From Campylobacteraceae bacterium (GTDB lineage Bacteria > Campylobacterota > Campylobacteria > Campylobacterales > BB28), in NCBI GenBank assembly GCA_016744535.1, contig JADGEE010000016.1, positions 1-40,006 of the forward strand: a DNA stretch of 40,006 nt, read 5' to 3'. The position numbers and the translations under genes were made by a program. Below are positions 27,782 to 30,295 of this stretch, piece after piece (positions within the stretch are counted from its first letter, which is position 1; each line of letters opens with the position of its first letter). A model generated the notes under the pieces. The model saw only the letters and a list, made by a program, of their open reading frames with translations. It searched no databases and had not been told where the DNA came from.

Positions 27782-28621
27782 TTGAATAAAGAAGATTTTT
27801 TTATCTCTTGCTTTTCTAAAAACTCCAAAAATTCTAAAAAATTTATAGGTGATGACGGTGCTGTTATAGGCAATTTAGTCTACTCGCAAGATGCTTTTTT
27901 TGAAAATATTCACTTTAAAAGAAGTTGGTTGAGTTTATCCCAAATTGCAAAAAAAGCTATGCTTATTAATATTTCAGATGCAATCGTAATGAATGCAGTA
28001 CCAAAATACGCCCTTTTAACAGTAGCTATTCCAAAAAATTTTAAAAGAGTTGAACTCGAAGAGTTAGCAAATGGATTTTTAACCATTGCAAAAGAGTATA
28101 ACATAGAGATTATCGGTGGAGATACAATTTCAAATATTAAATTAGATATTTCGATTACAATTATTTCAGAAATTAAAAAAAATCCCATTTATAGAAAAGG
28201 TTTAAAAGAGAATAATCTATTAGCATTTACAGAAAATTTAGGAAATTCAAAAAGAGATTTAAATCGACTTTTAAAAAATTTTAAAATAAATAAAAATTCA
28301 AAATTTATAAAACCAAAATTAAATCCAAAATTTTTTTATGAAATTGCACCTTATATAAATATAGCCTTAGATATTTCAGATGGATTATATTTTGAATTAG
28401 AGAGAGTTAGTAAAGCTAATAGATTAACATTTAAGTTTTTAAAAAATTTTAGTAAGAGAGTTGGATGTAGTGGAGAAGAGTATGAGATACTCTTTGGATT
28501 TAATAAAAAATATTTAACTAAAATAGAATCTATTGCTAAAAAACATAGAGTAAATTTAAATATCTTTGCTAAAGCTATCAAAGGAAAATATCAGAATAAG
28601 TGTAAAGCCCATCATTTTTAA
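27782..28621 (+). CDS. thiL: Thiamine-monophosphate kinase
   Basis: 279 aa, shorter than the E. coli enzyme (~325) but as in other Campylobacterota. It phosphorylates thiamine monophosphate to thiamine diphosphate with ATP. AIR-synthase fold motifs are visible: GDDGAVIG at the N-terminus, the IGGDTISN metal loop, LDISDGL, and GEEYEILF near the end. The start appears to be TTG, nine bases after the mgtE stop, with no clear ribosome site, so it may depend on coupling from mgtE. It ends in a terminator. Confidence 0.92.
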   Translation: MNKEDFFISCFSKNSKNSKKFIGDDGAVIGNLVYSQDAFFENIHFKRSWLSLSQIAKKAMLINISDAIVMNAVPKYALLTVAIPKNFKRVELEELANGFLTIAKEYNIEIIGGDTISNIKLDISITIISEIKKNPIYRKGLKENNLLAFTENLGNSKRDLNRLLKNFKINKNSKFIKPKLNPKFFYEIAPYINIALDISDGLYFELERVSKANRLTFKFLKNFSKRVGCSGEEYEILFGFNKKYLTKIESIAKKHRVNLNIFAKAIKGKYQNKCKAHHF

Positions 28622-28680: not shown

Positions 28681-29526
28681 TTAAATAAATTTTGGTTCTA
28701 TTTTATGATATTCTAATCCTATTTTTTTACTATCTACTTTACCAGTAGCTAATAATATAAGTTGTGCTAAATTTAAGAATGGTAATCTCATATCTCTACC
28801 CATTTCACACTCCAAGGCTTTTTGATTTTTATCAAACATAATAAATGCACTTGTCTCTGTTGATGTTACAATATCAGCACTATTATCAAACATATCAAGT
28901 AACATCTCTCCCGCTATTTGATGAGAAATTTTAGTATGAGAATTTAAATACTCAAATCCACAACTATTATAAATACTATCTAGTTTTATAACTTTTGCAC
29001 CAATAGCACATAAAATATCTTCGATTTGTTTGATACTAGTAGCCTCTTTAGTTTGACAATAACCATTTCCATAATATAAAGCTATATTGAAATCACTAAA
29101 AGAGTTTTTAACTCTCTCTTTTAAATTATCTAATCCAATATTTTGAGTTATTATATCAACTAAATGTGTAATTTTTACATTTCCTCGATACTCTTTACCA
29201 AGTTCTGCAAGTTTTACATTAACTTCATCTCTTAGCTTATTATTAGTTTTTAGACATTCTTTAGTTTTTGTATAACTATTAAAAGAGAAATCGTCATAAC
29301 AGATTAAATTAGCATTTGCCTCTTCAACTAATGCTAAATTGTAAGCATCAATAACTAAAGTAGTTAAACCGTCATCTAATAAATGTGTATCTCTTGAATT
29401 ACTAAAGTTTGAATTATCTATCTTAGCTATATCAATATTAAATACTTTTAAAAGTTCCATCGTAGCTACATCAAATGAATTTAAATCTTTTATATTAGCT
29501 ATATTTTCTAACAATATATATTTCAT
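28681..29526 (-). CDS. HdrB/SdhE-like (CCG domain) protein lacking most cluster cysteines
   Basis: 281 aa. It follows the two-domain pattern of HdrB-type subunits (heterodisulfide reductase B, SdhE/MfrE), which hold noncubane FeS clusters. LICYDDFSFNSYTKTKECLK occupies the place of the first CxxC region, and ALYYGNGYCQ that of the YYGCQ strand. KLDSIYNSCGFEYL stands at the CCG, DIVTSTETSAFIMF where the family has a CPxC pair, and MRLPFLNLAQLILLATG is the usual C-terminal helix. Only isolated Cys remain, so clusters of the normal kind cannot form (inference). It starts one base after the SdhB-like gene, as mfrE follows mfrB. Likely a structural or regulatory paralogue; role unknown. Confidence 0.75.
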   Translation of the reverse strand: MKYILLENIANIKDLNSFDVATMELLKVFNIDIAKIDNSNFSNSRDTHLLDDGLTTLVIDAYNLALVEEANANLICYDDFSFNSYTKTKECLKTNNKLRDEVNVKLAELGKEYRGNVKITHLVDIITQNIGLDNLKERVKNSFSDFNIALYYGNGYCQTKEATSIKQIEDILCAIGAKVIKLDSIYNSCGFEYLNSHTKISHQIAGEMLLDMFDNSADIVTSTETSAFIMFDKNQKALECEMGRDMRLPFLNLAQLILLATGKVDSKKIGLEYHKIEPKFI

Positions 29527-29527
29527 A

Positions 29528-30295
29528 TTAAGCCCCCTGCCAAAGTTTCTTCATTTCACCAATTAAACAATTTTCCTGTGCTAAAGTGCTTCTTGTTTTA
29601 CCAGTTAAATGTAAATTATTTCTAATCTCTTTTTTCTTATTTTCTACACTCTCATTTGAAAGTTGATTAAAAATTTTTCTTTGTAAAAATTTAACTTTAT
29701 CATCTAAATTTTTAGCTTCTTTACTTGAAAAGAACTTCTTACAACTTGAACTATATAGCCATATTCCATTATTTTCATCACTTAATTTTTCTAAAATTTC
29801 ATTCTCTTTAGATGGATATTTTTGAATTAAATCAATAGCTAATGCAAATACAGCATTACCTATAAAATCAGGGTTAAATCTTAAAATATCGCTTATATAA
29901 TATAAGTGTTTATAACTTTGATATTTACTTTTATCGCTATTATCAACGATACTATCAAAAATAGCAAGTTTTTTATTAAAATCACTATCATTAATAACTA
30001 AATCAGCAACTGCTCTATTATCTGCAATTGGTTCAATTTTTAATGAAGTTCCTAAACATTTAATTATATCTTGAATTGAAGTATCAAGTTTTGTAGCTCT
30101 ACCATTTACTTTTACATAAGCTTGTTTATTAGTTTCAAAAGAGAAGTGAACATCAAGTTTTCTAACTTCTTTTAAAACATCAATTAGTTTCTGCACCTTA
30201 TATGTTGTTACTGTTACCTTATACTCTTTATAGTATCTTAAAAAGTCTGTGTCAGCATTAAAACGAAAAACACTTAACTCTAAAGTTTGCTCCAT
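29528..30295 (-). CDS. SdhB/FrdB-like protein lacking FeS-cluster cysteines
   Basis: 255 aa. The N-terminus (LELSVFRFNADTDFLRYYKEY) and VTTYKVQKLIDVLKEVRKLD read like the ferredoxin domain of fumarate reductase or succinate dehydrogenase FeS subunits. The loop that should hold the [2Fe-2S] Cys reads SFETNKQAYVKVNGRATKLD, with none. The second half keeps the helical scaffold (FNPDFIGNAVFALAIDLIQK, NGIWLYSSSCKKFFSSKEAK) where CxxCxxC and CP motifs should be, again essentially Cys-free. This may be the DUF5644-type family of Campylobacterota (from memory). AAAGGAGCAGAAGTTATG supports the start. First gene of a two-gene operon. Confidence 0.75.
   Translation of the reverse strand: MEQTLELSVFRFNADTDFLRYYKEYKVTVTTYKVQKLIDVLKEVRKLDVHFSFETNKQAYVKVNGRATKLDTSIQDIIKCLGTSLKIEPIADNRAVADLVINDSDFNKKLAIFDSIVDNSDKSKYQSYKHLYYISDILRFNPDFIGNAVFALAIDLIQKYPSKENEILEKLSDENNGIWLYSSSCKKFFSSKEAKNLDDKVKFLQRKIFNQLSNESVENKKKEIRNNLHLTGKTRSTLAQENCLIGEMKKLWQGA

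Follow-up and report, generated by a model that had tools for sequence, protein, structure and literature searches.

A pair of adjacent genes in a 40,006-nucleotide stretch of Campylobacterota DNA (the window) almost certainly encodes, judging from sequence comparison, a cluster-free paralogue of the SdhB–SdhE module of the cytoplasmic enzyme SdhABE. The paralogue is ancient, arose once in this order, and has been kept either as an adjacent pair or as a fused chain. Databases already list the family, with no function assigned, as DUF5644 plus HdrB-like_C, Helicobacter pylori HP0468 and PDB entry 3KWL; what is new is its single origin from cytoplasmic SdhB–SdhE, its position directly upstream of sdhA-sdhB-sdhE in 11 genomes, and its persistence in 17 genomes that lack SdhE and MfrE.

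Family matches and fold of the gene pair

The FrdB/SdhB-like protein (DUF5644; 255 aa; 29528..30295, minus strand) comprises a β-grasp ferredoxin-like domain and a helical domain, with cluster loops shortened or substituted. The HdrB/SdhE-like protein (HdrB-like_C; 281 aa; 28681..29526, minus strand) has a two-lobed CCG fold, and a single base separates the two ORFs. The first-pass annotation had recognized FrdB-like and HdrB/SdhE-like character in two adjacent genes; the ORFs lie exactly there, and both profile and fold matches agree. The FrdB-like protein exceeds the curated cut-off of DUF5644 (PF18712; 1.5e-7, 31.8 bits against 25), falls slightly short of that of Fer2_3 (2e-5, 25.0 bits against 27), and scores 22.1 against 88 for dhsB and far below the cut-offs of NF004616 and MFR_FeS_SdhB. 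The HdrB-like protein passes the Pfam cut-off of HdrB-like_C (PF22196; 9e-13, 48.5 bits against 33.4) and matches TIGR03288 HdrB (1e-29, 103.5 bits) and NF042965 (2e-22, 80.1) below their curated cut-offs of 345 and 500, respectively. Sequence matches to solved structures include HdrB chains for the HdrB-like protein (3e-22) and 3KWL for the FrdB-like protein (4e-9). On such scores, the homology of both proteins to the SdhB and SdhE families is well beyond chance.

AlphaFold2 models (pLDDT 88.6 for the FrdB-like and 90.0 for the HdrB-like protein) predict the ferredoxin-like plus helical two-domain fold of SdhB/FrdB for the former and the two-lobed CCG-domain fold of SdhE/HdrB for the latter, so the first-pass reading does not fail for want of either fold. 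In Foldseek searches against the PDB, the FrdB-like model matched 3KWL best, followed by SdhB/FrdB chains with TM up to about 0.7, among them 2wp9_B (E 3.9e-9, TM about 0.7); the HdrB-like model matched HdrB chains at TM 0.88, with 3KWL seventh. Racemase and sugar-binding-protein folds also matched the HdrB-like model, weakly, and were judged to reflect generic two-lobed similarity. The alignments supplied to AlphaFold2 included true SdhB and SdhE rows, which could help the fold; 3KWL provides an independent crystallographic check. Archaeal HdrB (TIGR03288; 5ODC, 8RVU) is the best fold match to the HdrB-like half and scores strongly by sequence, yet its CCG cysteines are absent from the HdrB-like protein.

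3KWL (514 aa, H. pylori) belongs to the same family as the window pair, which passes the Pfam cut-off for DUF5644. Its residues 25–221 match the FrdB-like and residues 306–507 the HdrB-like protein within a single fused chain, whereas the window carries two genes, and sequence identity is only about 20%; a full-length fusion of Helicobacter type (L005) aligns with 3KWL along its whole length. 3KWL has been tabulated as a protein of unknown function (PMC3397514) and HP0468 listed as DUF5644 (PMC9570263), and these two entries combined identify 3KWL as HP0468. PMC6090961 mentions that HP0468 was a hit in a GWAS and cites its up-regulation by H2. One of the papers found names DUF5644 and two name HP0468; none assigns either a function, and no relation of either to SdhB–SdhE appears in the literature searched. 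A search under Cj1459, which we take to be the Campylobacter jejuni name of the look-alike, returned nothing.

Joint loss of the cluster cysteines

Cysteines were counted against aligned rows of the true subunits from this order, 13 for SdhB and 16 for SdhE. Of the 22 aligned cluster-cysteine columns (12 from SdhB, 10 from SdhE), the window pair retains 2, bearing out the first-pass observation that nearly all were gone from both proteins. The FrdB-like protein keeps one of the 12 SdhB columns (C185, present in 10 of 29 look-alikes), and the HdrB-like protein one of the 10 SdhE CCG-motif columns (C189), at which 4 of 15 look-alikes have cysteine and the sister genome has leucine. The [2Fe-2S] loop of the FrdB-like protein is shortened by deletion and has lost all four cysteines. 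The fourth cysteine site of the next group stays in register, YYACP in true SdhB against a look-alike consensus of YYASP, which points directly to a cluster-bearing ancestor. Among the aligned look-alikes the replacements at former cluster sites are consistent: serine at the YYxCP site in 24/29 FrdB-like halves, and in the HdrB-like half aspartate or glutamate at 78 in 15/15 and serine at 188 in 12/15.

Outside the clusters, 25 of 27 well-conserved columns of the FrdB-like half carry the same residue as true SdhB. This half is thus an SdhB framework minus its clusters, and its conserved polar residues may be purely structural. The HdrB-like half has acquired many conserved residues unlike those of true SdhE (F228, M230/F231, K236 and H274, besides D/E78 and S188). 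Fold, segment order and gene order (B then E) are common to the look-alikes and SdhB/SdhE of SdhABE (type E complex II); the look-alikes differ in having lost 20 of the 22 cluster cysteines together with the cluster loops, and in forming a separate clade. True SdhB and SdhE coexist with the look-alike in the same genome (L004/L063).

A single clade maintained under selection

Each half forms a look-alike clade of its own (100/100 support), separate from SdhB/FrdB/MfrB in one tree and from SdhE/MfrE in the other. As had been proposed, the two halves shed their clusters within one lineage and stayed together. The FrdB-like clade attaches by a long branch beside the SdhB rows of cytoplasmic SdhABE, and the nearest true relatives in the two trees are SdhB and SdhE of SdhABE. 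The look-alikes do not group with MfrB/MfrE; both trees reject an MfrBE origin, and the MfrB–MfrE parentage named at first pass gives way to SdhB/SdhE of the non-exported enzyme. MfrB and MfrE of 8-methylmenaquinol:fumarate reductase (NF042952, NF042965) are distant homologues in a clearly separate clade. That reductase is Tat-exported (PMC2680327), and a Tat motif is present in MfrA of L074–L077 and L086, whereas the look-alike has no evident signal peptide; the N-terminus of SdhA from the window genome (L063:10587-12299) has no Tat motif.

Cluster-free orthologues occur in the sister genome and in about 38 of the 120 genomes sampled from the order. The latter count compares a profile of the FrdB-like half with an SdhE model over the same 120 genomes, matches being classed by score, frame and position. 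A direct search with the window protein recovered two relatives only, and whole-genome profile searches were needed for the rest. DUF5644 alone is found in 72/150 genomes of a second sample, all listed under the same order. Frames are open and motifs conserved throughout the order, and purifying selection is seen in three lineages. Between the window pair and its sister copy, dN/dS is about 0.31; true SdhB/SdhE, compared across these two genomes, give about 0.15. Local decay is rejected: the sister genome (L001) and the order at large keep cluster-free copies under selection, and the close relatives, in which full cysteine motifs would have meant simple decay in the window, are themselves cluster-free. 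The sister record DZAZ01000012.1 (L001), titled Helicobacter cetorum, carries the same look-alike genes as G004, which belongs to the window's genus, and its species name looks wrong.

Every look-alike locus read contains both halves, adjacent or fused. The fusions take two forms: the longer, of about 496 aa, retains both HdrB lobes (Helicobacter type), and the shorter, of about 325–400 aa, lacks the HdrB N-lobe. Open frames of either size occur in genus g24, and on the tree the fused and separate states must have interchanged at least three times. Gene fusion is classic evidence of partners acting together, and its repetition here supports physical association of the halves. The N-lobe was dropped in many fusions, so the SdhE-like interface is incompletely kept. 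With joint cluster loss, adjacency or fusion, and selection all in place, the first-pass idea of a conserved non-redox pair appears to be the right reading.

Genome context and co-occurrence with complex II

At nine loci (L002, L035–L039, L042, L043, L054) sdhA, sdhB and sdhE come after a fused look-alike and share its strand. Two more genomes have the same spacing by coordinates, giving 11 genomes from several families. At one of these loci (L042:5840-6196, family f14), an apparently membrane-type ORF of 119 aa lies between the fused look-alike and sdhA. The look-alike of the window genome is unlinked to sdhABE; the genome encodes an intact true SdhABE on contig 37 (L004, L063). In genome G041 (contig 37, 18686-19387; L065), an in-frame TAA splits true SdhB into two ORFs, either a sequencing error or a lesion.

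Beside the pair, at 27782..28621 on the plus strand, lies a gene of cluster c2 that we take, by sequence recognition, to be ThiL-type. In several families the thiL-type gene adjoins the look-alike or sdhABE. Outside the families in which the look-alike precedes sdhA, it sits beside ThiL/TruD and a superoxide-reductase-like gene, and in families without a look-alike (L067, L068) the same ThiL/TruD and superoxide-reductase-like genes flank sdhABE. The simplest reading is an ancestral locus of ThiL/TruD, look-alike and sdhABE, from which either part would later have been lost. These neighbours and a uracil-DNA glycosylase suggest no common function and serve as markers of the ancestral locus. Relative to the thiL gene, the look-alike pair is inverted between window:27782-30295 and L001:8001-10464. 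At window:10741-12976, the superoxide-reductase-like gene, the uracil-DNA glycosylase and a third conserved gene lie together, away from both sdhE and the look-alike; genes like this trio follow one or the other in other families.

The co-occurrence check proposed at first pass was carried out on the sampled genomes. No SdhE or MfrE was found in 17 of the 38 look-alike genomes, and of the 91 genomes that do have one of these subunits, 70 carry no look-alike; the two are, if anything, anti-associated (Fisher odds ratio 0.21, p 6e-4, uncorrected for shared ancestry). Genomes with classic FrdCAB only occur both with and without it. The 70 genomes imply that the look-alike is dispensable for the SdhABE/MfrABE enzyme. 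The 17 rule out strict dependence on SdhABE and mean that the look-alike is not merely a servant of SdhABE; its clients, if it has any, must then extend to classic FrdA or to something else. They also make it less likely that the look-alike serves solely as a dominant regulator of the real reductase, as had been suggested. Genome G069 (family f8) has five Fer2_3 matches, several of classic FrdB length, without SdhE or MfrE. Sdh5/SDHAF2 (PF03937) gave no match in any of the 120 genomes, nor in the Pfam scan of either look-alike.

Possible roles of the look-alike module

The pair probably performs a non-redox job tied to the SdhABE enzyme family. Three features together suggest a complex II flavoprotein as partner: the operon link to sdhABE, the SdhB framework kept in the FrdB-like half and the lack of Sdh5/SDHAF2 from all 120 genomes. 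An SdhB–SdhE duplication in or beside the sdhABE operon would have yielded two halves whose mutual binding would mirror that of SdhB and SdhE. Devoid of clusters, the module could not pass electrons and would act as a non-redox placeholder, its SdhB-like half docking on the SdhB/FrdB-binding face of the flavoprotein, whether SdhA or, where SdhABE has been lost, FrdA. Once docked, it would either see the free flavoprotein through flavinylation and assembly, as a chaperone, or hold it inactive. Chaperoning or holding the flavoprotein is the job of Sdh5/SDHAF2 in other proteobacteria. That flavinylation factor (E. coli SdhE, YgfY) has no sequence relation to the look-alikes, for which an analogous role only is proposed. 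E. coli SdhE/Sdh5 binds FrdA on the same surface as FrdB (PMC5773532), and an SdhB mimic could occupy that face too; while bound, E. coli SdhE is reported to inhibit succinate/fumarate interconversion (PMC5773532). Our leading, though tentative, proposal is that the look-alike is a non-redox SdhB/FrdB mimic that docks on a complex II flavoprotein as a placeholder, serving either assembly or regulation. That it is a dedicated Campylobacterota placeholder standing in for the missing Sdh5/SDHAF2, with HP0468 as its fused form, is a slightly bolder conjecture, offered with more reserve.

The pair may instead have been repurposed for a partner other than complex II, its acidic and serine-lined HdrB pocket binding a ligand or metal in a sensor or scaffold. 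This would suit the HdrB-like half's own set of conserved residues, the persistence of look-alikes where SdhABE is gone and the up-regulation of HP0468 by H2, as cited in PMC6090961. The idea is only slightly less likely than the placeholder; against it, operon linkage with sdhABE recurs in several families, the FrdB-like half is nearly unchanged from SdhB outside the clusters, and many members have dropped the N-lobe bearing D/E78, so that the pocket is not universal. Persistence without SdhABE weighs the other way for a negative regulator or decoy, which would vie with true SdhB for binding to SdhA and keep the dehydrogenase partly inactive when clusters are scarce. An SdhB mimic encoded directly upstream of sdhA in several families, and the inhibition exerted by bound E. 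coli SdhE, fit such a decoy, but we regard it as unlikely.

Electron transfer by the module seems very unlikely. A few cysteines are partly conserved (HdrB-like C76 in 10/15 and C157 in 8/15, besides FrdB-like C185), as a subunit still redox-active through residual cysteines or a replacement cofactor might have, but none is conserved family-wide among the 29 FrdB-like and 15 HdrB-like look-alikes aligned, the 356-aa L002 member has no cysteine at all, and the former four-cysteine loops are deleted or occupied by bulky residues, making such a subunit highly improbable. Hardly credible, too, is a functionless duplicate heading for loss: its faster evolution than true SdhBE and its patchy presence would be expected, but the open frames, conserved motifs and purifying selection described above, the confident folds and the repeated fusions that keep frame all speak against it.

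The pair clearly exemplifies how two electron-transfer subunits can lose their cofactors in concert and still be retained together. It also gives an evolutionary origin and a testable list of partners to a protein conserved in Helicobacter and many other Campylobacterota, whose family crystal structure dates from 2010. If the flavoprotein is the partner, the placeholder reading would bear on complex II flavinylation in an order with no Sdh5/SDHAF2 in any sampled genome.
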